Translations under genes and position numbers: made by a program
In this document: positions 2,751 to 48,535 of the stretch, one piece after another
How the letters are laid out: each line of letters begins with the position of its first letter
Position numbering within the stretch: position 1 is the stretch's first letter
The notes under the pieces: model-generated
Told to the model about the DNA's origin: nothing
Database searches by the model: none
The model's input: the letters and a program-made list of their open reading frames with translations, nothing else
Assembly: GCF_003722335.1 (NCBI RefSeq)
Contig: NZ_CP026100.1
Location: 4,748,001 to 4,812,000 of the forward strand
Reading direction: 5' to 3'
From: Caulobacter flavus
Lineage (GTDB): Bacteria > Pseudomonadota > Alphaproteobacteria > Caulobacterales > Caulobacteraceae
Length of the DNA stretch: 64,000 nucleotides

Positions 2751-3934
2751 GCAGCGCCGCCGCCCGCAAGCTGGAGCCCGCGCCCCACCTGCCCGACCTC
2801 GACGCGGTTCTGCCGCGCCTGACGGAGGCCTTCGCCGCCACCGCCGGCCGCCACGACCGCGAGGCCAGCTTTCCCTTCGCCAACTTCCAGGCCCTGCACG
2901 AGGCGGGCCTGCTGGCGCTGACCGCGCCCAAGCGCCTGGGGGGGCTGGAAAGCGACCTGCCCACGGCGCTGAAGGTGGTCTCGGCCGTCGCGCGGGGCGA
3001 ACCGGCCACGGCGCTGGTGCTGGTCATGCAGTACCTGTTCCACGCCTCGGTCGAGGGCCGCTCGGGCTGGCCCGAGCACCTCAAGCAGCGGGTGATCGGC
3101 GACGCCATCGCGCACGGCGCCCTGATCAACGCCCTGCGGGTCGAGCCCGACCTTGGCACTCCCGCCCGCGGCGGTCTTCCGGCCACCATCGCCCGCCGCA
3201 CGCCGGAAGGCTGGCGGATCAGCGGCCGCAAGATCTACTCCACCGGTTCGTCCGCCTTGACCTGGTTCGTGGTTTGGGCCCGCAGCGACGGCGAACCCGC
3301 TCAAGGGGGGCCCCTGGTCGGCGGCTGGTTGGTGCGAGCCGATACGCCCGGCGTGGTCATCGAGGAGACCTGGGACCATCTGGGCCTGCGGGCCAGCGCC
3401 AGCCACGACGTGATCTTCGAGGATGTGCTGGTCCCGCTGGACCACGCGCTGGATCCCCAGCCCCTGGGCGCGCCGCCGCCCTATCCGGCGGCGTTCGGAA
3501 CCTGGTCGTCGGTGCTGACGGCAGCGATCTACGACGCGGTGGCCCGCGCCGCTCGCGACTGGCTGGCTGACTTCCTGATCAGCCGCAGGCCGGCCAACCT
3601 TGGCGCCAGCCTGTCGACCCTGCCCCGCTTCCAGGAGGCGCTGGGCGAGATCGACGGCCTGCTGCTGGCCAACCGCGTGCTGCTGGACAGCGCCGCGCGC
3701 GGCGACACGGCGGCCGGCGAAAGCGGCCTCGTCAAGCACCTGGTCACCGAGAACGCCATCACCGTGGTTGAGAAGGCCCTGAAGCTAACCGGCAATCCCG
3801 GCCTGACCCGCGCCAATCCGCTGGAACGCCATCACCGCGACGTGCTGTGCGGCCGGGTGCACACGCCCCAGGCCGACGTGGTGCTGACCGGGGCCGGGCG
3901 TGCGGGGTTCGCGGAACGCGAGGCCGTGCGATGA
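2747..3934 (+). CDS. Acyl-CoA dehydrogenase-fold flavoenzyme, SfnB/DszC-like
   Basis: This 395-residue protein has the acyl-CoA dehydrogenase N-terminal helical, middle beta and C-terminal helical domains. FLAG: RKIYSTGSSALTWFVVWA is the flavin-contacting middle region, and GNPGLTRANPLERHHRDVL near the C-terminus matches the group of flavin monooxygenases that includes DszC and SfnB. Members near sulfonate genes oxidise or desulfurise organosulfur compounds with reduced flavin. The reductase at 13057 could supply that flavin. It uses a GTG start overlapping the ATPase stop and ends overlapping the dehydrogenase start. The actual substrate is unknown. Confidence 0.75.
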   Translation: MSSAAARKLEPAPHLPDLDAVLPRLTEAFAATAGRHDREASFPFANFQALHEAGLLALTAPKRLGGLESDLPTALKVVSAVARGEPATALVLVMQYLFHASVEGRSGWPEHLKQRVIGDAIAHGALINALRVEPDLGTPARGGLPATIARRTPEGWRISGRKIYSTGSSALTWFVVWARSDGEPAQGGPLVGGWLVRADTPGVVIEETWDHLGLRASASHDVIFEDVLVPLDHALDPQPLGAPPPYPAAFGTWSSVLTAAIYDAVARAARDWLADFLISRRPANLGASLSTLPRFQEALGEIDGLLLANRVLLDSAARGDTAAGESGLVKHLVTENAITVVEKALKLTGNPGLTRANPLERHHRDVLCGRVHTPQADVVLTGAGRAGFAEREAVR

Positions 3935-4881
3935 GCCGACTCGTCGTCGCCAGCCAGCTGCCCGAGGTGTTCAACAGCGTCTTCGCCCAGCATGCGGCCG
4001 ACGCCGAGATCATCGCCGTGCCGCCCGGCCTGACCGCGCCCCTGCCGCCCTCGGCCAAGGTTCTGGTGGCCGCGCCGTTCCGCAAGGCCGGCGGCGTGCT
4101 GCCCGCCAAGGCTCCGCCCGGCTGGCCGTTCGACGTGCGCTGGGTTCAGCTGGTCTCGGTGGGCATCGACTTCTATCCGGACTGGCTGTTCGACGGCCCG
4201 GTCGTGACCTCGGCGCGCGGCTCTTCGGCCGTGGCGCTGGCCGAGTTCGCCCTGGCGGCGATCCTGGCCGACGCCAAGCGCCTGCCCGAGATCTGGATCG
4301 ACAGGGCCGAGCGCTGGACGCCCCAGCCGCTGAAGCTCATCTCCGGCACGACGCTGGGCATCGTCGGCTTCGGCGCCATCGGCGAGGCCCTGGCGCCGCG
4401 CGCCCAGGCCCTGGGGCTGAACGTCGTCGCCACCCGCCGCTCGGACAAGCCGATCCCGGTGGCCGGGGTCGAACGCGTGGCGGACCTGAAGACCCTGTTC
4501 GCCCGCAGCGACCACGTGGTGCTGGCCGCTCCGGCGACGCCGCAGACCGAGCGCCTGATCGGCCGCGAGGTGCTGGCCCACGCCAAGCCCGGCCTGCACC
4601 TGATCAACATCGCCCGCGGCGCGCTGATCGACGACGACGCCCTGCTGGCGGCGCTGGACGACGGCCGCGTCGGCCGCGCCAGCCTGGACGTCACCTTCCC
4701 CGAGCCGCTGACCGACGGGCACCCGTTCTACGGCCATCCGAAGGTTCGGCTTTCGCCCCACACCTCGGTGCACACGCCCGACACCCGCATCAACCTGGCG
4801 ACCCAGTTCGCCGAGAACCTCGCCCGCTTCCGCGCCGGCGCGCCCCTGGCCGACGTCGTCGACCTGTCGCGCGGCTACTGA
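3931..4881 (+). CDS. D-isomer-specific 2-hydroxyacid dehydrogenase
   Basis: The protein has 316 residues. The NAD-binding fold shows GTTLGIVGFGAIGEAL, then LINIARGALIDDDALLAAL with the catalytic Arg region, and LDVTFPEPLTDGHPFYGHPKVRLSPHTS with the Glu and His of the catalytic set. The family reduces 2-oxoacids or oxidises D-2-hydroxyacids. Within this operon it may process a sulfur-bearing or desulfonated carbon skeleton such as a lactate analogue, which is inference. ATG 3931 overlaps the upstream TGA. A longer in-frame extension upstream only reads through the preceding gene. Confidence 0.85.
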   Translation: MSRLVVASQLPEVFNSVFAQHAADAEIIAVPPGLTAPLPPSAKVLVAAPFRKAGGVLPAKAPPGWPFDVRWVQLVSVGIDFYPDWLFDGPVVTSARGSSAVALAEFALAAILADAKRLPEIWIDRAERWTPQPLKLISGTTLGIVGFGAIGEALAPRAQALGLNVVATRRSDKPIPVAGVERVADLKTLFARSDHVVLAAPATPQTERLIGREVLAHAKPGLHLINIARGALIDDDALLAALDDGRVGRASLDVTFPEPLTDGHPFYGHPKVRLSPHTSVHTPDTRINLATQFAENLARFRAGAPLADVVDLSRGY

Positions 4882-4899
4882 CAACAAGGACATTTCGCG

Positions 4900-5742
4900 A
4901 TGACCGCGATCCCATCGCCCCGGGGCTTTGCCGCCGCCGGCCCGCACCCTGCCAAGATAGAGACCGTGCTGCCGCCGTTCGGCGCACGCGAGATCCCCCA
5001 GCAGCCGACGCTCGAGCTGGAGCGGCTCTATCGCAAGCAGCGCCTGGCCGCCGGCTACCGGCTGTTCGGCCGCCATGGCTTCGACATGGGCGGCGCGGGC
5101 CACATCACCGCCCGCGACCCGGAACTGACCGACCATTTCTGGGTCAATCCGCTGGGCGTGCACTTCTCGCGCATCAAGGTTTCGGACCTGATGCTGGTCA
5201 GCCACGCGGGCGAGATCGTCCAGCCGCCGGCCAAGTCGCCCGCCCGCCTGAACCGGGCCGCCTTCGCCATCCATTCCCAGCTGCACGAGGCCCGTCCCGA
5301 CGTGGTGGCCGCGGCCCACTCGCACTCGCTGTACGGCAAGGCCTGGTCAGCGCTGGGGCGGCTGCTGGATCCGCTGACCCAGGACTCGGCGGCCTTCTAC
5401 GACGACCACGCCCTGTTCGAGGAGTTCTCGGGCGTGGTGCTCGACACCAGCGAGGGCCAGAAGATCGCCAGGGCCCTGGGACCGAAGAAGGCGGTGATCC
5501 TGCAGAACCACGGGATTCTGACCGTCGGCCAGTCGGTCGAGGCCGCTGTCTGGCGCTACCTCGCCCTGGAGAACGCCTGCCAGGCCCAGCTGCTGGCCGA
5601 GGCCGCCGGCCCGACCAAGCCGATGTCGCCCGAGGTGGCCAGGCACACCGCCAGCCAGGTCGGCACGGAGCTCGGCGGCGTCTACGCCTTCCAGCCCTAC
5701 TGGGACATCGTCACCGAAGAAGAGCCGGACCTGTTCGACTGA
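4900..5742 (+). CDS. Class II aldolase/adducin family protein
   Basis: The protein has 280 residues with an aldolase II domain spanning about 45-245. FDMGGAGHITARDPE, VAAAHSHSLYGKAWSAL (His-x-His metal ligands) and LQNHGILTVGQSVEAA (third His) give a complete divalent-metal site. Relatives include fuculose-phosphate aldolase and uncharacterised proteins common beside sulfur or ABC genes. An AAGGA site precedes ATG 4900, and its stop overlaps the next ATG. Retro-aldol or decarboxylation chemistry on the carbon backbone left after desulfurisation is plausible but unproven. Confidence 0.8.
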   Translation: MTAIPSPRGFAAAGPHPAKIETVLPPFGAREIPQQPTLELERLYRKQRLAAGYRLFGRHGFDMGGAGHITARDPELTDHFWVNPLGVHFSRIKVSDLMLVSHAGEIVQPPAKSPARLNRAAFAIHSQLHEARPDVVAAAHSHSLYGKAWSALGRLLDPLTQDSAAFYDDHALFEEFSGVVLDTSEGQKIARALGPKKAVILQNHGILTVGQSVEAAVWRYLALENACQAQLLAEAAGPTKPMSPEVARHTASQVGTELGGVYAFQPYWDIVTEEEPDLFD

Positions 5743-6755
5743 TGACCGGCCTTTCCCTGTCCCGCCGCGACCTGATGGCCGGCGGCCTTTCGATCGCGGG
5801 CCTGTCCATGGCCGGCCTGACCACCGTCAATCTGGCGGCCTGCTCGCCCACGGGCGACGACAGGGCCGGCTCGCTGGCCGACCTGACGCTGAGGGTCGCC
5901 ACCTATCGCGGCAATCCCGAGAGCTTCTTCGCCGAGGCGGGCATCCAGGACCCGTCCTACAAACTGGCCCGCACCCAGTTCGCCGGCGGCAACCTGATCG
6001 CCGAGGCGATCAACGCCCGGGCGCTGGACTTCGGCGGCATGAGCGAGATCCCGCCGATCTTCGTCGCCGCCCAGCCCGGCAACCAGGTCCGCATCGTCGG
6101 GGTGCTGCGCGGCGACGTGAACAACCAGGTCGTACTGGTTCCCAAGGGCTCGCCGGTCGGCGACTTCAGGCAGCTGAAGGGCAAGCGCGTCGGCTACGTG
6201 AAGGCCACGACCTCGCACTACATCCTGCTGCGCCTGCTGCAGGAGGCGGGCCTTTCCTGGAACGACATCCAGCCGGTGGCGCTGAGCCCGCAGGACGGCC
6301 TGGCGGCCTTCCAGAGCGGGGCGCTGGACGCCTGGGTGATCTACGGTGTCATCGTCTACCAGGCCCGCGAGGCCGAGGCGCGGGTGCTGCGCACGGCGCT
6401 GGGCATACTGTCGGGCAACTATCTGATCACCGCGGCCAAAGAGGCGCTGGACGACCCGGTGCGGTTCCAGGCGCTGGGCGACTATGTCAGCCGCTACAAG
6501 CGGGTGTTCGACTGGATCAACGCCGACGGCGAGCGCTGGGCCCAGGCCCGGGCCAAGGTCACCGGCGTCAAGGCCGACTACTACGCCCAGGAGTTCCGCG
6601 AGAAGTCGTCGCTGAACTATCTGGAGCCGATCAGCGAGGCGGCCATCGCCTCGCAGCAGGCCGTGGCCGACACCTTCGCCGCCGCCAAGATCATTCCTGC
6701 CCGGGTCGACGTGCGGCCGCTGTGGGATGACCGGCTCTCATCGTTTCTGAAATGA
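5742..6755 (+). CDS. ABC transporter substrate-binding lipoprotein, SsuA/TauA-like
   Basis: The protein has 337 residues. The N-terminus has a twin-arginine motif SRRDLM (residues 7-12), a hydrophobic stretch, then a lipobox LAAC (31-34), so it is probably a Tat-exported lipoprotein. The remainder is a type 2 periplasmic binding fold (NMT1/SsuA-like), with LKGKRVGYVKATTSHYILLR and AFQSGALDAWVIYG as landmarks. It would deliver a sulfonate-like ligand to the 1126/1932 transporter. The ATG overlaps the aldolase stop. Having the binding protein away from the permease genes, after the enzymes, is less usual. Confidence 0.85.
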   Translation: MTGLSLSRRDLMAGGLSIAGLSMAGLTTVNLAACSPTGDDRAGSLADLTLRVATYRGNPESFFAEAGIQDPSYKLARTQFAGGNLIAEAINARALDFGGMSEIPPIFVAAQPGNQVRIVGVLRGDVNNQVVLVPKGSPVGDFRQLKGKRVGYVKATTSHYILLRLLQEAGLSWNDIQPVALSPQDGLAAFQSGALDAWVIYGVIVYQAREAEARVLRTALGILSGNYLITAAKEALDDPVRFQALGDYVSRYKRVFDWINADGERWAQARAKVTGVKADYYAQEFREKSSLNYLEPISEAAIASQQAVADTFAAAKIIPARVDVRPLWDDRLSSFLK

Positions 6756-6887
6756 TGTCGAGCATCGCAAATATATCCGATGACTTCAGACGATATGAGC
6801 GGAGCTATCCGTTCGATCATTTTATATTCGTTGAGAAAAGCGCCCTCACAAACACAAATCCCCATCGAACAAGTCGGGGATAAATCC

Positions 6888-9071
6888 GTGCAGACCTTCA
6901 AGCTTCAACTTCTAGCTTTCACTTCCGGCCTCGCCGTCACCAGCGTGGCCTTGGCCGCCGAACCCGCGCCGGCCGCCAATACCGACGACGCCGGCTCGGC
7001 CGCCGTCGAGCAGGTGATCGTCACCGCCGAGCGCCGCGCCACCGACCTGCAGAAGACCGCCATCGCCATCTCGGCCTTCGGCCCGCAGGTGCTGGCCGAC
7101 CGCAAGGTCGACAACATCCGCGATCTGGCTGGCCAGATCCCGAACCTGTCGATCAGCCGCGTCACCATCAGCCACACCACCCAGACCTACGCCCTGCGGG
7201 GCGTCGGCGAGGCCGATCCGATCCAGGAGCCGGTGCTGGCGGTCTATGTCGACGACGTCTACGTGCCCCGCCAGATCGGCTCGATGATCGAGTTCAACGA
7301 CCTGGAGCGCATCGAGGTGCTGCGCGGGCCGCAAGGCACGCTCTACGGCCGCAACTCCAGCGCCGGCGCCCTGCGGATCATCACCCGCGACCCGGGCGAC
7401 GCCTTCCGGGCCAAGGCCGAGGTGGGGCTGGGCAGCTACGGCGCGGTCGACGTGCGGGCCCTGCTCGAGGGGCCGATCGTCGAGGGCAAGCTGGCCGGCA
7501 GCCTGTCGTACATCCACCACAAGCGCGACGGGGTGACCTTCGACCCGACGCTGAACCACGACGTCAACCGCATCGACCTGGACGCCTGGCGCGCCAAGCT
7601 GCGCTGGACGCCGACCGAAAAGCTGGACGTCCTGTTCACCCTGAACGCCCTGCGTGACCGCAGCGACACCCGCAGCTACATCCCGGTCAACCAGCCGGGC
7701 GGCGGGTTCGACAAGCGCCGCTCCTATTCCGAAGTGGAGCCGACCCAGGACCTGGACCAGATCAGCGGCTCGATCCGCGTCCAGTACGCGCTGAACGACA
7801 ACCTCAAGATCAAGTCGATCACCGCCTACGGCGGCTTCAACCTCAATCCCGTCAACTACGACAACGACGGCGAGGCGGCGCTGATCCAGAAGAACCTGAT
7901 CCACTACAACGACCAGTACGTCACCCAGGAAGTCCAGCTGAACGGCGACTACGGCCGCCTGACCTTCACCAGCGGGCTGTTCTACCTGCACGAACGCTTC
8001 TTCGTGGAGCGCGACGGCTACAGCCGCCGCAACGCCCAGGCCACCGATCCGGCGGTGACGCCCGGCAACTACAACTTCGCCCGCGCCCACAACGTGACCA
8101 ACACCGACGCCTACGCCCTGTTCGGCGAGGCGACCTACGCGGTGACCGACCGCTTCAGCCTGACCGGCGGCCTGCGCTGGACCAACGAGGAGAAGGAATT
8201 CGTCTTCGACAACAAGGTGCTGAACCTGGCCGGCCAGGTGATCGGCCAGTCGATCGCGGGGACGGCCGACAAGACCTGGTCGGCGATCACGCCCAAGCTG
8301 ACCGCCCAGTACCAGTGGACCCCGGACGTCTCGCAGTACGTCAGCTACTCCAAGGGCTTCAAGTCGGGCGGCTTCGACAACCGGGCCACGCGCCTGGACC
8401 TGGCCACCCTGCCCTTCGCGCCCGAGGACGTGACCACCTTCGAGGCGGGCCTGAAGACCCAAGCCTTCGACCGCCGCCTGCGGGCCAACCTGGCGGCGTT
8501 CTACAACGACTATCAGGACCTGCAGGTGTCGTTCTACGACCCGGCCTATGTGGGCAGCCGCCGCGGCAACGCAGGCCAGGCCCACACCTACGGCGTCGAA
8601 CTGGAGACCCAGGCGCGGCCGACCGATCGGGTGGGCCTGAACTTCAACGTCGGCTGGTTGTTCGCGGTCTATGACGACTACAAGGGCGCCGGCGGCGCGG
8701 GCGTGAACGCCGACGGCAACCGCCTGCTGAACTCGCCGCGCTGGAACCTGTCGGGCGGCGTCACCTGGGACGTGCCAGTCGAGGTTCCGGGATCGGTGCG
8801 CGTGGGCCTGGACGCCCAGTGGCAGAGCGGCGTCGTCAGCAGCGCCACCCCGTCGGCCGGCGGCCAGCACGACATCCCCTCGCAAGGCTTCCTGAACGGC
8901 ACGATCACCTGGACCGCGCCGGACCCGCACTGGGCCGTGCAGCTGTCGGCGCGCAACATCCTCGACAGCGACAAGCCGGTGTCCTCGACCTACACCCCGT
9001 CGACGGCCGTCTACTACCAGAACTTCCCCGACCCGCGGACCTGGCTGGTCACGCTGAAGTACGCGCTGTGA
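6888..9071 (+). CDS. TonB-dependent receptor of the organosulfur operon
   Basis: The protein has 727 residues. From GTG 6888 (GGGGA seven bases upstream) the N-terminus is a clean signal peptide ending ALA-AEPAP. A longer ATG reading from 6780 would bury it. A TonB-box-like VEQVIVTAE follows, then a plug domain (about 45-155, with EVLRGPQGTLYGRNSSAGAL) and a 22-strand barrel ending in Leu. It should carry a bulky or scarce organosulfur compound across the outer membrane for the ABC transporter upstream. The 132-base gap before it is AT-rich and may hold an internal promoter. Confidence 0.88.
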   Translation: MQTFKLQLLAFTSGLAVTSVALAAEPAPAANTDDAGSAAVEQVIVTAERRATDLQKTAIAISAFGPQVLADRKVDNIRDLAGQIPNLSISRVTISHTTQTYALRGVGEADPIQEPVLAVYVDDVYVPRQIGSMIEFNDLERIEVLRGPQGTLYGRNSSAGALRIITRDPGDAFRAKAEVGLGSYGAVDVRALLEGPIVEGKLAGSLSYIHHKRDGVTFDPTLNHDVNRIDLDAWRAKLRWTPTEKLDVLFTLNALRDRSDTRSYIPVNQPGGGFDKRRSYSEVEPTQDLDQISGSIRVQYALNDNLKIKSITAYGGFNLNPVNYDNDGEAALIQKNLIHYNDQYVTQEVQLNGDYGRLTFTSGLFYLHERFFVERDGYSRRNAQATDPAVTPGNYNFARAHNVTNTDAYALFGEATYAVTDRFSLTGGLRWTNEEKEFVFDNKVLNLAGQVIGQSIAGTADKTWSAITPKLTAQYQWTPDVSQYVSYSKGFKSGGFDNRATRLDLATLPFAPEDVTTFEAGLKTQAFDRRLRANLAAFYNDYQDLQVSFYDPAYVGSRRGNAGQAHTYGVELETQARPTDRVGLNFNVGWLFAVYDDYKGAGGAGVNADGNRLLNSPRWNLSGGVTWDVPVEVPGSVRVGLDAQWQSGVVSSATPSAGGQHDIPSQGFLNGTITWTAPDPHWAVQLSARNILDSDKPVSSTYTPSTAVYYQNFPDPRTWLVTLKYAL

Positions 9072-9075
9072 CGGC

Positions 9076-9690
9076 ATGAGCAGCGCCCCCAACCTTCACC
9101 GTCTGGCCCAGTTTGTCGGCGACCTCGGCGCCCTGCTCGACCGAACGGGCGACGAGGCCACGATCCTGCGCGAGGGCGAGGCCCTGCTGGCCGGACTGAT
9201 CGCCCAGGACGACTGGCTGCCTGACGCCTACGCCGTTCCCAGCCCGGCCCGCTACCAGCAGTACCTGCTGCATTGCGACAGCCGCGAGCGGTTCAGCGTG
9301 GTCAGCTTCGTCTGGGGTCCGGGCCAGGCCACGCCCGTGCACGACCACACGGTCTGGGGCCTGGTAGGGGTGCTGCGGGGCGCCGAGCTGTCTCAGCCCT
9401 ATCGCCGCGACGGCGAGGCCCTAGTCGCCGACGGCCCGGCCCACCGGCTGGAGCGCGGCCAGGTCGAGGCGGTCTCGCCCACCGTCGGCGACGTGCACCA
9501 GGTCACCAACGCCTTCGACGACCAGGCCTCGATCAGCATCCACGTCTACGGGGCCAATATCGGCGCGGTCCGCCGCGCCACCTACGACGCCGAGGGACGC
9601 AGCAAGCCCTTCGTCTCCGGCTACTCCAACGACACTCTCCCCAACCTGTGGGACCGGTCCCGGCCGGTCCCCGTCGAGGCCGCGCCATGA
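9076..9690 (+). CDS. Cysteine dioxygenase-type thiol dioxygenase
   Basis: The protein has 204 residues with a cupin fold of the CDO_I family. The iron ligands are visible as His89 and His91 in PVHDHTVWG and His141 in GDVHQVTNAF. H156-V-Y158 in SISIHVYG matches the conserved His/Tyr pair of thiol dioxygenases. The position equivalent to the mammalian crosslinking Cys is Gly, as in bacterial enzymes. The family adds O2 to a thiol to give a sulfinate. It starts four bases after the receptor stop and overlaps the rhodanese start. Substrate could be cysteine, 3-mercaptopropionate or another small thiol. Confidence 0.82.
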   Translation: MSSAPNLHRLAQFVGDLGALLDRTGDEATILREGEALLAGLIAQDDWLPDAYAVPSPARYQQYLLHCDSRERFSVVSFVWGPGQATPVHDHTVWGLVGVLRGAELSQPYRRDGEALVADGPAHRLERGQVEAVSPTVGDVHQVTNAFDDQASISIHVYGANIGAVRRATYDAEGRSKPFVSGYSNDTLPNLWDRSRPVPVEAAP

Positions 9691-38442: not shown

Positions 38443-39219
38443 TCAGCCGACGAAGAACTCCACGGGCGCCAGCACCTCGACCGGGTCGCCGGGCACCTCT
38501 TCGGGCGGCGGCGGCATGGGCGAAGCGCGGCGGATGGTGGCCAGCGCCTCGTCGTCGAGCAGCGGATAGCCCGATCCCTTGGCCACCCGGGCCGACAGCA
38601 CCCGTCCGCCGCGATCGACGGTGAAGGCGATGTGAACCACGCCCTCCTGCCCCGCGCTCTGGGCGCGACGGGGATAGCGCTTGTAGGCCTTGAGGCGGCC
38701 CAGGATCAGGCCGCGCCAGCTGATCGCCGCGTCGCGGGCGCTGGCGGCCGAGGTGCGCTGCGCGGCCGCGACCGGCGCCGGCGGGGCGGCCACGGCGGGC
38801 GGCGCGGAGGCCTCGCGGGGCGTCGAGGGTCGCGCCAGGGCGTCGCCTTCCGCCGCGCGGGCGTCGGACCGCAGCTGCGGCGGCAGCACGCCGCGCGGAT
38901 CGGGCGGACGATCGATCGCCTTGAGCGGCGCGGGCGTGGCGGCGGCGGCCGGGCTGGCCTTGGCTTCCGGTCCCGGCGGCCGCTCGTCCTTAGGGCGCGG
39001 CGGCGCGACCGGCGCCACGGCGAACTCGACCGCAATCGCCTCGATCGGCGCGGCCGGCGGCATCTCCGGCCGGCTCAGCCGCAGATAGACGCCCAGCAAC
39101 AGGCCCACGTGCAGCACCACCGCGCCCGACAGGGCCAGGCTCCAGCGCCGCTTTCGCCCCGTGGCGGCGGGCGGCTCGTACGGGATCTCCAGCACCGTCA
39201 TGGGCAGGGCCTGCAGCAT
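38443..39219 (-). CDS. tonB: TonB energy transducer
   Basis: The protein has 258 residues. An N-terminal membrane anchor (SLALSGAVVLHVGLLLGVYL, about 27-47) is followed by a Pro/Ala-rich periplasmic linker. The C-terminal TonB domain contains YPRRAQSAGQEGVVHIAFTVDRGGRVL and SGYPLLDDEALATIRRASP. It couples the proton-motive force (via ExbBD encoded elsewhere) to an outer-membrane receptor. Its ATG overlaps the Slam-gene stop (ATGA), so it is probably dedicated to the receptor at 41652. An in-frame ATG six codons later is an alternative. Confidence 0.92.
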   Translation of the reverse strand: MLQALPMTVLEIPYEPPAATGRKRRWSLALSGAVVLHVGLLLGVYLRLSRPEMPPAAPIEAIAVEFAVAPVAPPRPKDERPPGPEAKASPAAAATPAPLKAIDRPPDPRGVLPPQLRSDARAAEGDALARPSTPREASAPPAVAAPPAPVAAAQRTSAASARDAAISWRGLILGRLKAYKRYPRRAQSAGQEGVVHIAFTVDRGGRVLSARVAKGSGYPLLDDEALATIRRASPMPPPPEEVPGDPVEVLAPVEFFVG

Positions 39220-40715
39220 CAGAACACCCTTTCCAGCTTCAGGCTGGCGGCGGTCTTCTCGTAGGAGAACAGCCAGTCGATGCTGCTGGCGACCTTGGCG
39301 TACTGCACCGTCAGGCTGGGCGTGAAGCCGCCGGGCGTCTTCCAGCGCGGCGCGCGCAGGATGGCCGTGAAGGTCTGCTCGTCGTCGCGGCGACGCGCCT
39401 CCAGCGTCTTGTTGACGGCGTCCCAGCGCTTGCGGCGGGCCGAGGCGAACAACGTGCCGTTCAGTCCCTTGACGGTCGGCGTCGCGGCCCCCAGGCGCAG
39501 GCCGGCCTGACGATAGGCGTTGACCGCGCGATCGGCGTCCTTGTCGAGCAGGTCCATGCCGCCGAACAACGTCCAGCCGCCGGCAAGGCCGCGCCAGGCG
39601 GTCAGGAACAGCGAGGCCTGGTCGCCGTCCAGGGCCGAGAACGAAGCCCGGCTGTAGCGCATAGCCTTGTAGTCGGCCTCCAGCTTGACCAGGGTCGAGG
39701 CCCCCAGCCCCCGGGAGATCTCGGCATGCAGGCCCGGCGCCTCGTACAGCCGTTCCGCGCCCAGGGTCGCGACATCCAGCGACGGGGCGACGCCGAACGC
39801 CAGCCGCGCGGTGCGGTAGTCGAAGCCGGCCTGTGCCACGAGCGTGGCCTGGTTGTAGCGCCCCTCCTCGGGATAGAGCTCGCCATAGGCCATGCCCCGG
39901 AACGTCAGGCCGCCCGAGCCGCGCATCGGCAGGCGGCGATTGAGCACACTCTCGAAATTGACCGTGGCGGCGCCCAGGGGATCGGGCGTCTTGCGGTCGA
40001 AGAAGCAGACGCCCTCCGGTCCCGGCAGCAGGCAGGCATAGCTGCCCGAGGCCTGGTTGATGTTGGAGTTCCAGCCCGGTCCCAGCGCGAACTGGCCGGT
40101 CCAGCCGCGACGGCGCTTCAGCGCGCTCAGGAAGGTCTCGACGCTGCGGCGCACGCCCGCGGCGCGCGGGTCATCGGCCGGAAGCTCGGCCTTGATCGCC
40201 AGGAACATCGCCTCGGCCTCGCGGTCGCGCTGGTTCTCGAACAGCACGCGGGCCAGTTCGATGCGGCCCGGCTGGAAGTCCGGCTGCAGGGCCAGAAGCT
40301 GGCGAAAGCTGCGTTCGGCGCCGCGCAGGTCGCCGTCCTGGCGCGCCAGTTGGCCCTGGGCGTAGCTGACCAGCATCGGGTCGCGCTCGGGCAAGGCCAG
40401 ATAGGCCTTGAGGAACCGGCGGGCGTCGGCCCACTGGCGGCGGGCCAGCGACAGGTAGAGCGCCTTGCCGACGTCGTCGGCGCCGGGCCCGACCGCATAG
40501 GCTTGGCCGTCGATGACCAGCACGTCGGGCGCGGTCTCCTGACGAGTCCTGGCCTCGCGCTCGGCGGCGCGGCGCGACAGTTCCTGGTCGAGACGCAGGC
40601 GGGTGTCGTCGTCGACCTGGGCGTGGGCGCCGCCGGCCAGGGCCAGAACGACGAAAGCCGCGCAGCCGGCGGCGACGCGGAACGGAAAACGCTGGGGCAC
40701 GGACGACCTGCTCAT
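39219..40715 (-). CDS. Slam (type XI secretion) outer-membrane translocon, DUF560
   Basis: The protein has 498 residues. The signal peptide ends GGAHA-QVD. A periplasmic TPR-like region (about 75-210) contains LRGAERSFRQLLALQPDFQPGRIELARVLFENQRD. A C-terminal 14-strand-type barrel (about 215-498) starts WTGQFALGPGWNSNINQA and ends LERVF with a terminal Phe for BAM recognition. This is the surface-lipoprotein-assembly-modulator architecture. Slams export substrates with a small TbpB-like barrel, and such a substrate is encoded 61 bases upstream. TonB follows directly. Confidence 0.88.
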   Translation of the reverse strand: MSRSSVPQRFPFRVAAGCAAFVVLALAGGAHAQVDDDTRLRLDQELSRRAAEREARTRQETAPDVLVIDGQAYAVGPGADDVGKALYLSLARRQWADARRFLKAYLALPERDPMLVSYAQGQLARQDGDLRGAERSFRQLLALQPDFQPGRIELARVLFENQRDREAEAMFLAIKAELPADDPRAAGVRRSVETFLSALKRRRGWTGQFALGPGWNSNINQASGSYACLLPGPEGVCFFDRKTPDPLGAATVNFESVLNRRLPMRGSGGLTFRGMAYGELYPEEGRYNQATLVAQAGFDYRTARLAFGVAPSLDVATLGAERLYEAPGLHAEISRGLGASTLVKLEADYKAMRYSRASFSALDGDQASLFLTAWRGLAGGWTLFGGMDLLDKDADRAVNAYRQAGLRLGAATPTVKGLNGTLFASARRKRWDAVNKTLEARRRDDEQTFTAILRAPRWKTPGGFTPSLTVQYAKVASSIDWLFSYEKTAASLKLERVF

Positions 40716-40740
40716 CGCAAGAACTTGGGGGCAAGAGCTC

Positions 40741-40768
40741 GGGGCGAAGGCCGGCTGGCCTCCGCCCC
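40741..40768 (-). terminator. Hairpin between hemophilin-like and Slam genes
   Basis: GGGGCGAAGGCC and GGCCTCCGCCCC form a 12-base stem with one mismatch around a 4-base loop, nine bases past the hemophilin-like stop on the minus strand. It has no U-run. It could attenuate transcription so that much more substrate than translocon is made. Confidence 0.6.
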
Positions 40769-40776
40769 TCGCATCA

Positions 40777-41541
40777 TCAGTTCTTCGTGCCGCCGAAGGC
40801 GGTGTCGTAGACGCTGTTGCCGCCGAAGGTGACCAGACCGGCCAGGGCCGCGGCGTTGGCGCCGAAGAACTTGCCGCTGACTTCGCCGCCCGAGGCCAGG
40901 GTGGAAGCCCCCTGCGTCGCCGTGGCGTTGGCCGTGGTGCTGGCGATGGTCAGGCCGGAGATGCCCACCGAGCCGATGTCGACCTTGTAGCCGGTCGTGG
41001 CGCTCTGGACGTAGCCGCCCAGCGTGCCGGCGGTGAAGTCGGCGTTGAAGGTCCCTTCCAGGATGCCGTTGGTGGCGTAGTCGCTGAGGCCCTTCACGGT
41101 GTAGCTGGCCGTGCCCGAGCCCGCGGTGGCGCCGGTGTCGTCGCCGACGTAGTAGACGGTGTGGGTGCCGTCATTGGCGTTGGCGGTGTCGGACCATTCG
41201 CCGAACCACAGGTCGCCGGTGCTGACCTTGGCGAAGTTGAACACGCCCATGCCGTTGTGGCTGCCCGGCGCGGTCGACGGGTTGTTGATCGTGCTGACGC
41301 CGCCCGACGGCGGGGCCGAGGCCGACAGACCCTGGAAGTCGACATAGGCCGACAGGCCGATCGAGGCGACGGACACGCCGGCCTTGCCGGCCGTGTGCGG
41401 ACCCGCGTTGATCACGCTGGCGCCCACCTTCAGGTGGGTCTCGTCGGTGGACTCGCCGACGATGCCGGCATGGGCTACGCCGGCCAGGGCGACGGCCGTG
41501 ACGGAGGCCAGGATCAGCGTCTTGAAGGTCGAACGGTGCAT
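40777..41541 (-). CDS. Secreted Slam-dependent hemophilin-like protein
   Basis: The protein has 254 residues with a Sec signal peptide cleaved near AHA-GIVGES and no lipobox, so it should be released rather than anchored. The N-terminal half is a Gly/Ser/Asn-rich beta domain (SAPPSGGVSTINNPSTAPGS, GVFNFAKVSTGDLWFGEWSD). The C-terminal half is a TbpB-type small barrel ending with GGEVSGKFFGANAAALAGL and DTAFGGTKN, the signature Slam substrates use for recognition. GGAGAAGA precedes ATG 41541. Relatives (hemophilin, HphA) bind heme. Heme as ligand here is inferred. No obvious heme-ligating motif can be read. Confidence 0.82.
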   Translation of the reverse strand: MHRSTFKTLILASVTAVALAGVAHAGIVGESTDETHLKVGASVINAGPHTAGKAGVSVASIGLSAYVDFQGLSASAPPSGGVSTINNPSTAPGSHNGMGVFNFAKVSTGDLWFGEWSDTANANDGTHTVYYVGDDTGATAGSGTASYTVKGLSDYATNGILEGTFNADFTAGTLGGYVQSATTGYKVDIGSVGISGLTIASTTANATATQGASTLASGGEVSGKFFGANAAALAGLVTFGGNSVYDTAFGGTKN

Positions 41542-41607
41542 ATCGTCTTCTCCGAGGCTTGGTTGACGGGTCCCTCCATGGAGACCCTGGGGCATCGCGG
41601 CGCCCGC

Positions 41608-41630
41608 CGCGTCGGTAGGGAGCCGACGCG
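41608..41630 (-). terminator. Hairpin between the TBDR and the hemophilin-like gene
   Basis: CGCGTCGG and CCGACGCG form a perfect 8-base stem with a 7-base loop, 22 bases past the receptor stop on the minus strand. No U-run is visible. It probably sets relative expression of receptor and secreted protein. Confidence 0.5.
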
Positions 41631-41651
41631 CCGAAAGCCGTGAATGGGGGG

Positions 41652-44630
41652 TCAGTAGCGGGCGGTCATGCTGAGCTTCAGCGTGCGCCCGGGGGCCGGC
41701 TGGGCCGTGCGGGTCAGGGGATCGGTGTAGTAGCGGTCGTTGAGGTTGGTCCCGACCAGCTCGAACCGGACCTTCTCGTTGAGCTTGAAGTTGGCGTAGG
41801 CGTCGACCGTGACGATGTCGTCCCACAGGTAGGGCGTGTTCAGCGCCCAGCCGTCGACGCGGGTGGCGGTGGCGCCGCCGATGAAGCGGTCGAGTTCGGG
41901 ATTGTCGTAGCCGCTATAGTAGGCGCCGCGCAGGCCGACCTCGAGCCGGCGCCGCAGGAAGCGGGCGCCCAGGTTGAGGTTGGCCGAGTTCTCGGGCGTG
42001 GCCTGGGTGAGCAGGTAGCCGCCGACGAAGCCGAAGTTCACGCAGTCGGGCACGATGCCGGTGTTGGGCTGCTTGAGGATCGCCTGCTGGCGGTCGCAGA
42101 CCTTGTTCTTGAAGTTGTGGGCGGCGGAGAAGTCGGCGAACAGGCGGCCGTTGTCGTAGCGGGCCTGCAGCTCCAGCCCCTCGATGATCTGCTTTTCCAG
42201 GTTGGAGAGCTGCAGCTGCGTGCCGCGTTCGATGATGTTGCTGGTGCGGTTGCGGAACCAGGTCAGCTTGACGTCGGCGCGCTGGCCCTCGGGCAGCGAC
42301 AGCAGGGCCGACAGGTCGTGGACGTAGGCGACTTCCCAGGTGCGGGCGTGTTCGGGCTTCAGCGGCCGGGTCGGATCGATGGCGGCCGAGAAGCCGACCG
42401 TGCTCTCGAACAGGCTCGGGAACCGATAGGCCTCGGCGTAGCGGACATAGGCGCGGGCGTTGGGCGTGAAGTTGAAGGTCGCCGACGCGGCCGGGGTCCA
42501 GCCGTCGCCGCGCTGGGTGCGGCTGACGGCGGTGACCGGCGCCTGGTTCACCGTGGCCACGCAGTAGCCGGTGGCGCCGGCGACGGTGTTGAGGAAGCCG
42601 TTGACGCAAGGGTTGGTCGCCCTGGTCAGCTTGCCCGTGCTGTCACGCTCCCAGGGGATGCGGGTGGTCACGGTGCGGCCGTTGACCAGAGCGCGATAGG
42701 CCACCGTGGCGTCGGTGAAGACGTAGTTGGTGAAGACCACGCCCTTGGCGATCTGCTCGTCCAGGAAGTCGTCGAACGCCCAGTAGTGCGAGTAGCGCGC
42801 GCCGGCGGTCAGGGTCAGCTCGCTGACGGGCCGCCATTCGAGATTGGCGTGGACGTTGTATTCCTCGCGCCGGCCAGCCCGGGGGTACTGGCGCCAGCCG
42901 TCGAACGTGCCGCCCCACTCGTCGGGCGAGGTCAGCTTCTCGTGCTGCCAGTCGCCGGCGACCACCAGGTCGAGGGTCGGCGCCAGCCGCGTCTTGTTGC
43001 TGAGCGACAGGCCGTAGCGGTCGTTCTTGGCGTTGGCCAGCGCGGTGTTCTTGATGATCGGGTTGGCGGCGTTCTGGGCCCAGTTGGGGAAGCCGCCGGC
43101 GCTGTAGGTGTGGCTGTTGGTGCGGGTCAGCCAGACCGACGTCTTCAGGTCCACCCAGCGGCCGCCGGGCTTGAGCCGGTAGTCGACGTTCCAGGCGGTG
43201 GCGTGCACCTCGCCCAGCGGCCACTGCACCTTGCCCATGCCGTTGTTGGCCACGGTGATGATCCGCGAGGGCATGATCTCGCCGTAGGTCGAAACGGTGT
43301 CGCGCACGCCGAACTTCAGCTGCTGGCTGTCGCTGATCTTCCAGACCAGCTTGCCCAGCCACGAACTCATTTCGCTGGAGGTGTTGGGGACCTCGTTGCC
43401 GGGCTGGTAGTTGAAGGCCAGGCGCTTGATCAGGTCCTGCGGGCCCGACGGCATGGGCAGGTTGGTCTGCTTGTAGTAGTCGGCCTCGCTCTCGCCGGCG
43501 AAGTAGTTGCCGCGCTCGCGCCAGGCGTAGGCGACCAGCCACTCGACGTCGTCGCCGCGGCCGGCGATCGCCAGGCGCGCGGCCCGGTCGCCCAGCGACA
43601 GGGTGTCGTTGTCGGACGAGGTGCGCGGCGTCACCTGCACGTAGGGATCGTTGTAGGGACTGCCCGGAAAGCCCGTGGTTCCGGTCGCGCCGGGAAAGCC
43701 GGGCACGTTGCGATAGTCCTGGCCGGTCAGCAGGGTCGGCAGGCGCGGCTTGGTGGAGTTGTCGCCGCCCTCGATACGGACCTCGGCGCCGTAGCGCTCG
43801 CCCTCGCGCAGGATGTCGCGCGGCGCCAGGGTGTCGATGACCACCGCCCCGCCGACGGAGCTATGGACGCCGGCGGTCAGGGACGGACCTTTCAGCACCT
43901 GCACGCCGCCGACCAGGCTGGGGTCGATGTAGCTGCGGTTGTTGGCGCCGTTGTAGCCGCGCCAGACCGTCAGCGCCTGCTCACCGCCGTCGATGATGAC
44001 CGGCACGCGGCCGGGGCCCTCGATGCCGCGCACGCTGGGATCAAGCGCGCCGCTGTTGCGGGCGTCGCCGCTGTAGACGCCGACCATGCCCTTGAGCACG
44101 TCGGCGGGGCTGACGCCCTTGTAGCGCTCGACCTGGGCCTTGCCGGCATAGGTCGAGGCGCCGTCCAGGTCGTAGACGCCGTCGTAGCCGAGAGCGTCGC
44201 GGGCGTTGAGGGCTTCGCCGCCGCCGGCCGCGCCCTCCACGCGCAGGGCGTCGGTGACGACGGCGCCCTTGCCGCTCGGCGCGGCTTCCAGGGTGACGAC
44301 GCCCGGACGCACCTCGCGCCAGGTGAAGCCGCTGCCGGCCAGCAGGCGCGAAAGGATCTCGCCCTGGCTGAAGCGGCCGCGCACGGCCGGCGCGCGGCGG
44401 CCGTACGGCGCCTCGACGGCGTAGACGATCTGGACGCGGGTCTGCAGCGAGAACTGGCTCAGCGCCTGGGGCAGCGGCTGGGCCGGGATGTCGACCGCGA
44501 AGGCCGCGCTCTCCTGGGCGGCGGCGGGAAGTGCGTTCAGGGCCAGCGGGCTGGTCGAGGCCAGGGCGAGGCATAGCGACAGCCGGCGGATACGCGGAAG
44601 CAGGCCGGGGCGGGTAACAGGCGTCGTCAT
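41652..44630 (-). CDS. FecA-type TonB-dependent receptor with STN signalling domain
   Basis: The protein has 992 residues. After a signal peptide (to about 39, AAA-QES) comes an N-terminal STN domain (about 46-116, VDIPAQPLPQALSQFSLQTRVQIVY), which signals to FecR-type anti-sigma factors. The plug includes RGIEGPGRVPVIIDGG and VLKGPSLTAGVHSSVGGAVVI. The barrel ends SMTARY with terminal aromatic. It is flanked by FecI/FecR upstream and the hemophilin-like/Slam/TonB genes downstream. The canonical FRAP/NPNL heme-receptor motif is not clear (YRFPSLFES is the nearest), so the heme call depends on context. Confidence 0.87.
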   Translation of the reverse strand: MTTPVTRPGLLPRIRRLSLCLALASTSPLALNALPAAAQESAAFAVDIPAQPLPQALSQFSLQTRVQIVYAVEAPYGRRAPAVRGRFSQGEILSRLLAGSGFTWREVRPGVVTLEAAPSGKGAVVTDALRVEGAAGGGEALNARDALGYDGVYDLDGASTYAGKAQVERYKGVSPADVLKGMVGVYSGDARNSGALDPSVRGIEGPGRVPVIIDGGEQALTVWRGYNGANNRSYIDPSLVGGVQVLKGPSLTAGVHSSVGGAVVIDTLAPRDILREGERYGAEVRIEGGDNSTKPRLPTLLTGQDYRNVPGFPGATGTTGFPGSPYNDPYVQVTPRTSSDNDTLSLGDRAARLAIAGRGDDVEWLVAYAWRERGNYFAGESEADYYKQTNLPMPSGPQDLIKRLAFNYQPGNEVPNTSSEMSSWLGKLVWKISDSQQLKFGVRDTVSTYGEIMPSRIITVANNGMGKVQWPLGEVHATAWNVDYRLKPGGRWVDLKTSVWLTRTNSHTYSAGGFPNWAQNAANPIIKNTALANAKNDRYGLSLSNKTRLAPTLDLVVAGDWQHEKLTSPDEWGGTFDGWRQYPRAGRREEYNVHANLEWRPVSELTLTAGARYSHYWAFDDFLDEQIAKGVVFTNYVFTDATVAYRALVNGRTVTTRIPWERDSTGKLTRATNPCVNGFLNTVAGATGYCVATVNQAPVTAVSRTQRGDGWTPAASATFNFTPNARAYVRYAEAYRFPSLFESTVGFSAAIDPTRPLKPEHARTWEVAYVHDLSALLSLPEGQRADVKLTWFRNRTSNIIERGTQLQLSNLEKQIIEGLELQARYDNGRLFADFSAAHNFKNKVCDRQQAILKQPNTGIVPDCVNFGFVGGYLLTQATPENSANLNLGARFLRRRLEVGLRGAYYSGYDNPELDRFIGGATATRVDGWALNTPYLWDDIVTVDAYANFKLNEKVRFELVGTNLNDRYYTDPLTRTAQPAPGRTLKLSMTARY

Positions 44631-44665
44631 GTCTCGGGTCGGTCTCGTCTCGTGGGTCGCCCATT

Positions 44666-44684
44666 ATTGCGAGCGACACTCAAT
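44666..44684. promoter_or_regulatory. Second Fur-box-like site, upstream of the receptor gene
   Basis: ATTGCGAGCGACACTCAAT agrees with the Fur-box-like sequence before the sigma gene (46352-46370) at 13 of 19 positions and is partly palindromic. It lies 36 bases before the receptor start. Direct Fur control of the receptor, in addition to the sigma factor, is plausible. Confidence 0.45.
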
Positions 44685-44769
44685 TGCATCTTGTGATGGA
44701 GAGACGAAACCCGACGGCGCGATCCCCTAGCGACCCCGCCGATTTTTTTGCCGTGACGTTACGAGACAA

Positions 44770-45735
44770 TCAGTAGAGCAGGACGAAGCCGCCCAGGCGC
44801 GCGGCGCGCAGGTTCAGCGAGGCGGCCAGGGCGTCGATGGCGGCGTCGGGCCGGCCGACGTCGAACACGCCCGAGACCGGCCGCGCGGCCAGGGCCTGCC
44901 CGCGCACGAACACCTTGCCGCGCCGGTAGCGGCCGATCTCGTCGACCACTTCGGCAAGCGGCCGGTGATAGACGACCAGCCTGCCCTGCCGCCAGGCGTC
45001 GACCGCCGCCGGATCCTCCAGGGCCGCGGCCTTGGGCGCCGCGCCGTCCAGCAAGGCCCCCTGCCCGGCCCGCAGCACCGCGACGCCCCGTCCGCTCGCC
45101 GGCTCGACCCGCACCGCGCCGCGCAGGACGCTGACGCGGGCCGCGTCGCTCTCCAGCCGCACGTCGAAGGCCGTGCCCAGCACCCGAGCGCTGCCAGCCC
45201 GGCTCTCGACCACGAACGGCCGCGACGGATCGTGGACGACGTCGAAGAAGGCCTCGCCCTTCACCAGCCGCACGCGGCGACCTTCGGGACCGTAGCGGAC
45301 GTCGAGCACCGCGCCGGTGTTGAGCGTGACCGCGCTGCCGTCGGCCAGCACCTGCCGGCGCACCTGCCCGACCTCGGCGATCAGATGGTTCGGATCAGCG
45401 GGCGCGAAGGCCTTGAAGGCCACGCCGGTCCCGAGCGCCAGAACCAGGCAGGCCGCGGCGGCGGCCGGGATCCGCCAGGGACGGCGGCCCGATCTCACCG
45501 ATGGCGCGAGAGCCCGACCACGGCGCGGCTGGAACGGCTGGCTGGCCTGGGGCGCGGTCACCGCGCCGATCAGCGACAGCACGTGGTCGGCCTCGGCCAT
45601 CGCCTGGGCCCGCTCGGGATCGACCGCCAGCCAGGCGGCGTGACCGGCCATGTCCGCTCCGTCGCGCAGGCGCAGCGCCCGTCGCGCCGCCGCGTCGAAC
45701 AGAGCCTCTTCCCCGCTTTTGTCCTTGTCGCTCAT
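44770..45735 (-). CDS. FecR-type anti-sigma factor / signal transducer
   Basis: The protein has 321 residues. An N-terminal DUF4880 segment (about 5-45) is followed by a membrane helix (PAAAAACLVLALGTGVAF, about 90-107). The periplasmic FecR domain contains VRRQVLADGSAVTLNTGAVLDVRYGPEGRRVRLVKGEAFFDV, and a C-terminal STN-like region has VSGVFDVGRPDAAIDALAASLNL. It senses the receptor's STN domain and controls the adjacent ECF sigma factor. An earlier ATG at 45801 overlaps the sigma stop. Its 22 extra codons have low third-position GC, so I use ATG 45735. Confidence 0.9.
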   Translation of the reverse strand: MSDKDKSGEEALFDAAARRALRLRDGADMAGHAAWLAVDPERAQAMAEADHVLSLIGAVTAPQASQPFQPRRGRALAPSVRSGRRPWRIPAAAAACLVLALGTGVAFKAFAPADPNHLIAEVGQVRRQVLADGSAVTLNTGAVLDVRYGPEGRRVRLVKGEAFFDVVHDPSRPFVVESRAGSARVLGTAFDVRLESDAARVSVLRGAVRVEPASGRGVAVLRAGQGALLDGAAPKAAALEDPAAVDAWRQGRLVVYHRPLAEVVDEIGRYRRGKVFVRGQALAARPVSGVFDVGRPDAAIDALAASLNLRAARLGGFVLLY

Positions 45736-45793
45736 GTGGGCTTTTGGTCCTCCCGATGGACAGGACGAACCGGCGCCCGCGCTTCCCCTAGTC

Positions 45794-46339
45794 TCATCCA
45801 TCGCCGCGCGCTTCCTTCAGCCTGCGGCGGCAGTGGCTCATGGCCTTGGCGAGGTGGTTCTCGACCGTGCGCGGCGAGATCCCTAGGCGATCGGCCACCT
45901 GCTGCATGGTCAGGTCGTGGCCGCGATAGAGCAGGATCACCTGCCGGCACTTGTCGGGCAGTTCGGCGATGGCGGCCTGGACGATGGCGATCTCCTGGCG
46001 GCCGGCCAGCACCTGGAACGCCGAGGGCGCGTCGCTGCCAGCGTCCAGCGGCAGGTCACCGGGCGTGACCCGCCTGGCCTGCGCCGCCGCCTGCCTCTGC
46101 CGGTCCACGACGAGGTTGGCGATGATCCGACGCAGGTAGCTCAACGGATTGCGCACCGCCGCGCCGTCGAAGCCCGGCGCGCGGGTCAGGTCCGACAGCT
46201 TGAGCCACGTGTCCTGCATGACGTCGTCGGCCAGGCTGGCCGAACGGGCCTTGCGGGCGGCGAAGCGACGGAGATCCTCGTAGTGGGCTTCCAGCAGGCC
46301 GGTCAGGTCGGAAGCCTTTCCCCTCTGGCCAGATCCCAT
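45794..46339 (-). CDS. FecI-type ECF RNA polymerase sigma factor
   Basis: The protein has 181 residues. Region 2 includes HYEDLRRFAARKARSASLADDVMQDTWLKL and LSYLRRIIANLVVDRQR. Region 4 includes VQAAIAELPDKCRQVILLYRGHDLTMQQVADRLGISPRTVENHLAKAMSHCR. It would direct polymerase to the receptor promoter when the receptor signals through FecR. An ATG at 46369 is in frame but lies inside the Fur box, so I start at 46339 with GGGGTGG upstream. A perfect housekeeping promoter precedes it. Confidence 0.92.
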   Translation of the reverse strand: MGSGQRGKASDLTGLLEAHYEDLRRFAARKARSASLADDVMQDTWLKLSDLTRAPGFDGAAVRNPLSYLRRIIANLVVDRQRQAAAQARRVTPGDLPLDAGSDAPSAFQVLAGRQEIAIVQAAIAELPDKCRQVILLYRGHDLTMQQVADRLGISPRTVENHLAKAMSHCRRRLKEARGDG

Positions 46340-46351
46340 TACGCCACCCCA

Positions 46352-46370
46352 AATGAGAACGACTCTCATT
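46352..46370. promoter_or_regulatory. Fur box upstream of the ECF sigma gene
   Basis: AATGAGAACGACTCTCATT has perfect 7-base inverted arms AATGAGA/TCTCATT around five bases, the usual Fur-box form. It sits 11 bases downstream of a strong -10 element, where bound Fur-Fe would block transcription. The sigma, FecR and receptor genes should therefore be on only in iron shortage. Confidence 0.75.
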
Positions 46371-46380
46371 ACCGCGCCAT

Positions 46381-46409
46381 GATCTAGCGATCTCGCCGCC
46401 GCGCGTCAA
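46381..46409 (-). promoter_or_regulatory. Housekeeping promoter of the ECF sigma gene
   Basis: On the minus strand TTGACGC (46409-46403), a 14-base spacer and GCTAGATC (46388-46381) match the Caulobacter housekeeping consensus TTGACGS-N10-14-GCTANAWC at every defined position. Transcription would start near 46374, beside the Fur box. Confidence 0.8.
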
Positions 46410-47347: not shown

Positions 47348-47558
47348 GGGAAACGCACTCTCGGTTCGAAATGAACGCCGGAGATGACCGGCGTCCGGCC
47401 GTCGGCGCAAGCTTTACCGACGGCAATATCGAGCATGAGAACACCGCGTTGGTCGGGACGGCCGGGCGGCGGCTAGCGTCGGCGGGCCTTCACACGCGCG
47501 CCGAGGGGCCCGGCGCGGCGCGATGCGCCCTCCCGACAACGACAAGAAAGACGACGCC

Positions 47559-48535
47559 ATGCTTCGCCCCATCCTTCTGGCCACGGCCGCCGCACTGGCC
47601 CTGACGAGCGCGGCGCCCGCGCTGGCCGCCGACCACGACGCCGCCGCCGTTCACGCCCGCACCCTGGTGCTGGACAGCCATGTGGACGTACCCGCCGACC
47701 TGGGCGTTGGGGCGCACGAGGCGGCCGTCGACAGCGACGGGCAGGTCGACCTGCCCAAGCTGGAGCGCGGCGGGGTCGACGCCGCCGTGCTGGCGGTGTT
47801 CGTGGCGCAGGGGCCGCGCACGCCGGAAGGCTACGCCCAGGCCCGCAAGGACGCCGACGCCAAGCTGACCGCTATCCGCGCCATCGCCGAGCGTCATCCG
47901 GATCGTGCCGTGCTGGCCCTGAAGGCCGACGACGTCGAGGCCGCGGCCGAGGCCGGCAAACGGGCGATCGTGGTCGGCTTCCTCAACGCCTATCCGTTCG
48001 GCGAGGACGTGTGGCCAGCCACTCGGGCGTGCAGGCGATCGTCGACAATCCGCGCAACCTGTCGGACGCCGAACTCGACGCCATCGCCGCCAAGGGCGGG
48101 GTCGTACAGATCGTCGCCTTCGGTCCCTATCTGGTCCGGCTGACCGATACCCTGCGGCCGAAGGTGGCCGCCCTGCGCGCCCAGTACGGTCTGCCCGCCG
48201 CCTTCGTCCGCGCCGCCGACGGGACCGAGGCTCTGTCGCCCGAGAAGCGCAAGGACTACAGCCACGCCGTCACCGACATCCTGCCCAAGGCGACGGTGAA
48301 GGACCTCGTGGACTCCGTCGACTACACGGTCAAACGCGTGGGCGTCGATCACGTGGGCCTGTCGTCCGACTTCAACCACGGCGGCGGGGTGGTCGGCTGG
48401 GCCAACGAGGGCGAGGCCGGCAACGTCACCGCCGAACTGGTGGCGCGCGGCTATTCGGAGGCCGACATCGGCAAGCTGTGGGGCGGCAACTACCTGCGCG
48501 TCTTCCGCGCCGTGGAGCAGACGGCCAAGCGCTGA
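47559..48535 (+). pseudogene. Membrane dipeptidase (peptidase M19) with internal deletion and frameshift
   Basis: Codons from 47559 encode a signal peptide (to about 23, PALA-AD) and the M19 start with LVLDSHVDVPADLG, up to VVGFLNAYPFGEDV. At about 48008 the frame changes, and homology resumes at 48011 with VASHSGVQAIVDNPRNLSDAEL and runs to the normal end (LSSDFNHGGGVVGW, GGNYLRVF). Intact family members have roughly 80 more residues between these points, including metal ligands. The gene has therefore lost an internal segment not divisible by three and cannot make active enzyme. An assembly error is possible. Confidence 0.8.

Follow-up and report, generated by a model that had tools for sequence, protein, structure and literature searches.

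The published gene list for the hemO cluster of Acinetobacter baumannii names an extracytoplasmic function (ECF) sigma factor, an anti-sigma factor, hphR, hphA, hsmA, a TonB-related gene, a heme oxygenase and a hypothetical gene (PMC10483418). HphA of this species is reported to hold heme iron with H43 and H106, and the double mutant to bind no heme (Bateman et al., PMC8560813). Subcluster 1B of the type 11 secretion system (T11SS) is described as including soluble cargo and free-living members (PMC8406197). Here, we describe a hemophilin gene cluster in Caulobacter flavus. The stretch analysed, hereafter the window, is 64,000 nt of contig NZ_CP026100.1 and all positions are given in window numbering. 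Six genes sit on the minus strand (38443–46369). Pfam and NCBIfam profiles identify their products, along the block, as an ECF sigma factor, FecR, a TonB-dependent receptor, a hemophilin, Slam and TonB. A first-pass annotation of this DNA had proposed that Slam, hemophilin, FecIR and TonB form a complete system here. The Pfam matches uphold that proposal; all six genes lie at the positions given and belong to the families named. Judged from sequence and predicted structure, the probability that this is a hemophilin-type heme acquisition system, laid out as in the Acinetobacter hemO cluster and taking up heme by this route, is about 90%.

Curated profiles underlie the Slam and hemophilin assignments, with scores far above the cut-offs. 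The secreted hemophilin of the HphA family (40777..41541) matches HphA_N (1.9e-33), HphA_C (1.7e-23) and TbpB_B_D (1.2e-5). The HphA_N match scores 115.6 bits, against a cut-off of 22, and spans profile positions 2–110 of 110. The predicted structure contains a small C-terminal TbpB-like barrel. Hence, profiles and structure both agree with the barrel expected at first pass. The Slam, or type 11 secretion outer-membrane translocon (39219..40715), matches SlipAM (DUF560) at 1.9e-36, with 126.5 bits against a cut-off of 22 and coverage of profile positions 1–288 of 288. Its N-terminal TPR domain matches TPR_Slam (7.4e-24; 84.6 bits, cut-off 35.2). Thus, the claim of a Slam-type translocon stands. 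The hemophilin contains no cysteine. Hence, a lipobox is impossible, as the first-pass annotation had it, and the protein is predicted to be soluble and not lipidated. The signal peptide was judged by eye.

Relatives were collected from GTDB species genomes with a single peptide pattern, [GAQ][DE][VL][WY]FGEW; 139 were confirmed by tblastn and 80 loci were kept. The predicted heme ligands of the window protein are H49 and H95. In alignment, these line up with histidines 33 and 96 in the HphA chain of A. baumannii. If the chain numbering is offset by 10, which is our own count, those residues are H43 and H106. Both H49 and H95 are invariant in 29/29 rows of an alignment (A2) of the window protein with 28 loci, hand-picked from the 80. 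In two loci (L036 and L037) hemophilin genes stand in tandem, and the first copy has the second heme histidine replaced. Because of this replacement, the sequences suggest that the first copy is a paralogue that grips heme differently or has a different role.

At the head of the block lies the gene for a FecI-type ECF sigma factor (45794..46369). This matches Sigma70_r2 (9.5e-10), Sigma70_r4_2 (1.8e-15) and, above cut-off, TIGR02937 sigma70-ECF (1.1e-25). The adjoining gene (44770..45801) encodes a FecR-type anti-sigma factor or signal transducer (FecR PF04773, 9.2e-21; PRK09774 FecR, 2.5e-31, below the equivalog cut-off). Both are upstream of the gene for a putative HphR-type TonB-dependent heme receptor with an N-terminal STN-like domain (41652..44630; barrel 5.7e-35, plug 2.6e-11), which is the arrangement of FecIR surface signalling. 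The last gene encodes TonB (38443..39219; TonB_C 1.8e-18; TIGR01352 tonB_Cterm 3e-22, above cut-off).

A Fur-box-like operator, GGTAATGAGAGTCGTTCTC, overlaps the first ATG of the sigma gene (46355..46373, minus strand). It has 14/19 matches to the Fur consensus, a score reached by 0/200 shuffles of the upstream region. No other site with at least 13/19 matches was found anywhere in the 64-kb window; the one other match at this threshold is GGTAATGAGAGTCGTTCTC itself, read on the opposite strand. The other Caulobacter clusters include seven with a readable sigma start. Six of these have a Fur-like box at the same offset, with 15/19 matches, and the seventh has 12/19. For C. crescentus, a palindromic motif of 19 bp has been described at Fur sites (PMC3751524). 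Hence, iron control of the hemophilin cluster, already asserted at first pass, is likely, given the Fur-like box at the sigma start. Since the first ATG (46369) falls within this box, the true start of the sigma gene is probably the ATG at 46339. Many Stenotrophomonas and Sphingomonas loci had no good Fur-scored box near the sigma gene. Some of their receptor-upstream gaps seem, by eye and unscored, to hold one.

Upstream of the receptor is a candidate FecI-type promoter, AGGGGATC-N14-CGTCT (44702..44728, minus strand). This is kept in 9/9 clusters of the genus. The strict pattern occurs once in the window and the looser AGGG-N12..22-CGTCT occurs 11 times. We also read 51 receptor-upstream gaps. 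The loose pattern appeared in 14, of which 13 are Caulobacter rows, with the same genomes counted twice among them. A FecI promoter common beyond Caulobacter was rejected; outside the genus, the loose pattern was found in one locus alone (L057).

From gene content, gene order, the predicted fold, the kept ligands and the Fur-like box, we infer every step of binding, secretion and signalling in the following scheme. On iron starvation, Fur would leave its box and FecI and FecR would be made. The hemophilin would be exported by Sec and then pass through the Slam barrel. Outside the cell, it would bind heme between H49 and H95. Heme-loaded hemophilin would dock on the HphR-type receptor, and heme would be imported with energy from TonB. 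The STN-like domain of the receptor, with FecR, would free FecI for transcription of the receptor, hemophilin, Slam and tonB genes. Heme would probably be broken down by one of the genome's two heme oxygenases, both encoded outside the cluster.

Several observations weigh against this scheme. The STN match of the receptor (residues 67–116, E 1.7e-5) scores 24.9 bits, below Pfam's curated cut-off of 28.4. The STN domain named in the first-pass annotation is visible, but below this cut-off. The best NCBIfam model for the receptor is TonB-hemin TIGR01785, at 237.8 bits, under the heme-receptor cut-off of 316.85. In A1, an alignment of more mixed composition, a histidine stands at the H49 position in 10/13 rows and at the H95 position in 11/13; the family is not uniform. 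The window hemophilin has both histidines despite this variation, and the rows without them include extra paralogues. No PF01126-type heme oxygenase was found in the cluster (window 30001–52000), using a profile grown from the genome's own two oxygenases. Finally, a search of the genome limited to FecCD-type importers found none outside cobalamin genes.

The secreted protein and receptor might instead take up another metalloporphyrin, a corrinoid or a metal. Such a ligand would suit the sub-threshold receptor score, the FecCD result and the lack of the classic FRAP text, and T11SS cargo is not always for heme; one reported cargo is the cobalt receptor protein CrpC (PMC12282271). Set against this are the match to the heme-binding HphA_N domain, at 1.9e-33 over almost the whole profile, and the two kept heme ligands. 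The receptor motif was compared in 18 aligned receptors adjoining hemophilin genes, drawn from Caulobacter, Sphingomonas, Stenotrophomonas, Vibrio, Xenorhabdus, Acinetobacter and others. FRAP was present in 0/18. Its position was occupied in 18/18, the window receptor type included, by R[FYML]P[SAN][LMI]FE, a description made in this analysis and not a published definition. Because the alteration is common to them all, an Acinetobacter receptor included, we read it as a mark of the receptor group and not as evidence against heme. Hence, the first-pass annotation correctly noted a receptor without classic FRAP, but the doubt it drew from this about heme as the ligand is not supported. A non-heme ligand is very unlikely and was set aside. 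In Haemophilus haemolyticus, hemophilin is reported to sequester heme from a competitor (PMC10964412), and the product here is soluble. It is nevertheless barely plausible that keeping heme from competitors is its main function, with uptake secondary, since the genes for a receptor, TonB and a FecIR circuit stand in the same block, which fits feeding.

With PF01126-type seeds, no oxygenase was found in any Caulobacter cluster read (one, L030, is cut at tonB). A heme oxygenase gene is present in 15/25 loci with the same six genes, Caulobacter ones included in the total. The ten without comprise four from Caulobacter and six from Vibrionaceae. Hence, Caulobacter is not alone in this lack. The two heme oxygenases of the C. 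flavus genome (G000; 5,659,202 bases in one contig) lie outside the cluster, each with an adjoining DUF454 gene. DUF454 lies beside or overlaps the oxygenase gene in 18/21 oxygenase-bearing loci (13 by a strict rule and five by overlap of extended open reading frames), a fraction biased upward because the DUF454 seeds came from L033, L034 and L117, where the pair had already been seen. Two of the 21 (L033 and L034) are not hemophilin loci. Examples of the DUF454 gene are L033:8251-8799, L034:8511-9269 and L117:12917-13342, among others. In the Acinetobacter cluster L117, DUF454 follows the oxygenase, which is the slot named hypothetical in the published hemO list. DUF454 is a candidate membrane partner of heme use. 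Our literature search found no paper pairing DUF454 with heme oxygenase; YbaN and heme do co-occur in papers.

The C. flavus genome has a second FecI-FecR-heme-type receptor locus about 55 kb away (L033; G000:C1:4846000-4862000, at 2862-9557). This encodes a receptor with an STN domain over the cut-off, together with divergent heme oxygenase, DUF454 and TonB genes. Neither Slam nor hemophilin was found there, and no Fur site of at least 14 matches. The sole FecCD-type importer found in the genome is flanked on one side by a corrinoid adenosyltransferase gene and on the other by cobalamin-synthesis genes for CobD and a phosphoribosyltransferase. The Caulobacter operon might, as a long shot, be a front end whose back end lies elsewhere in the genome. 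The oxygenase-DUF454 pair of the second locus would then process hemophilin-caught heme, and DUF454 (YbaN-type) would supply the missing inner-membrane partner for heme uptake, or for the oxygenase, in bacteria without a heme ATP-binding cassette importer. The DUF454-oxygenase pairing is a testable hint on the inner-membrane heme step. Separately, the genome encodes a second, divergent Slam near 2.017 Mb of G000:C1 (L035:8885-10156; SlipAM 4.5e-25). Directly after it is a gene for an 880-aa protein (L035:10173-12815) with a lipobox-like LTAC near the N-terminus, seen by eye, and three stretches of TbpB-type barrel match (TbpB_B_D 8.8e-26). Its sequence makes a large surface lipoprotein likely.

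Within the genus, HphA_N was detected in 9/75 genomes, including C. zeae, C. endophyticus, "C. vibrioides" T5M6 and Caulobacter sp. D5 and AP07. Gene content and gene order agree among the nine clusters to the extent that the contigs cover them (L030 is cut at both ends). Wider samples gave 6/398 genomes for the order, all in Caulobacter, 1/385 for the class, which is the C. flavus genome itself, and 9/398 for the phylum, again with this genome among them. Gene orders were then compared across the 80 loci, with profiles grown on these same loci and neighbouring repeats collapsed. The exact order sigma-fecR-receptor-hphA-slam-tonB is present in 25/80, and 21/80 have the first five genes with no tonB found adjoining, which is not proof of its absence. 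A further 29/80 (Xenorhabdus and Photorhabdus) have hphA-slam-receptor-tonB without FecIR; other orders account for 5/80. The 25 six-gene loci span Caulobacter, Sphingomonas, Novosphingobium, Xanthomonas and relatives, Photobacterium, Salinivibrio, Vibrio and Acinetobacter. Hence, the complete hemophilin circuit, with FecIR, occurs beyond pathogens and symbionts and recurs across alpha- and gammaproteobacteria. One contig with a Stenotrophomonas-like hemophilin cluster (L059) is assigned to a metagenome-assembled genome, Rickettsia endosymbiont of Bradysia coprophila. L059 and L060 have equal identity and E-value to the query, and the assignment of L059 is probably a binning error.

In a FastTree phylogeny of Slam and receptor (74/83 considered loci, midpoint rooted), the Caulobacter clade has four Sphingomonas loci as its sister group, with support of 0.998. 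A recent horizontal arrival in this strain is not supported, because the G+C content of the cluster (0.711) is near that of the window (0.702) and the flanks are common to clusters of the genus: the flanking AKR, DUF4129 and MoxR genes are the same in 6/8 of the others. Simple vertical descent is itself weakened by the presence of the cluster in just 9/75 genus genomes, and by one cluster (L031) for which 18 kb of sequence showed none of these flanks; L030 is too short for this comparison. In the non-carrier that is nearest by both flanking proteins (G1126), considered for an empty-site comparison, the two are encoded on separate contigs.

Two further features of the window were noted. A perfect 8-bp stem (CGCGTCGG / CCGACGCG; 41608..41630, minus strand) forms part of a predicted fold in the receptor-hemophilin gap and may have a role in expression. 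The fold is unexceptional (z -1.14; 21/200 shuffles equally good). Among relatives, a T-A pair of the stem is T-G or C-G in some and A-A, hence broken, in L027. The hairpin was rejected as a special element on these grounds. Beyond the cluster, a Peptidase M19 (dipeptidase) gene (47523–48535) is split over two frames, and five relatives hold about 240 more bases between its two parts. Hence, the gene looks broken in this strain.

The first-pass annotation took the joining of FecIR and TonB to Slam and hemophilin as new. It is not; the A. baumannii hemO cluster and the 25 six-gene loci share this order. Hence, the main reason then given for high interest falls away. By its sequence, the cluster is a new host record for a known hemophilin system, real, well predicted and functionally clear. 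We found no publication title on hemophilin, hemophore or T11SS in Caulobacter or alphaproteobacteria, and two 2024 J Bacteriol hemophilin papers (Shin; Grossman) may list Caulobacter. Caulobacter has good genetics, and Slam-dependent hemophores with their surface signalling could be studied there in a non-pathogen.

The Xenorhabdus Hrp locus (HrpA, HrpB, HrpC and TonB) is described as having, like the Caulobacter cluster, a DUF560-secreted soluble hemophilin, a heme receptor and TonB (PMC8406197). Xenorhabdus and Photorhabdus loci differ in their order, hphA-slam-receptor-tonB, from which FecIR is absent. Stenotrophomonas maltophilia also has an HphA (PDB 8gmm), and most such Stenotrophomonas loci showed no tonB immediately downstream. 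The six Sphingomonas and Novosphingobium clusters have the same six genes, ordered as in Caulobacter. Unlike the Caulobacter clusters, all six carry a downstream heme oxygenase. The A. baumannii hemO cluster differs in the same respect, as neither a heme oxygenase nor a DUF454 gene was detected in the Caulobacter clusters. In addition, A. baumannii HphA is reported with a lipobox motif (PMC8560813), whereas the Caulobacter hemophilin is cysteine-free. The two systems share a two-histidine hemophilin, as described for A. baumannii in the same report, and the first six genes are identical in order and kind.

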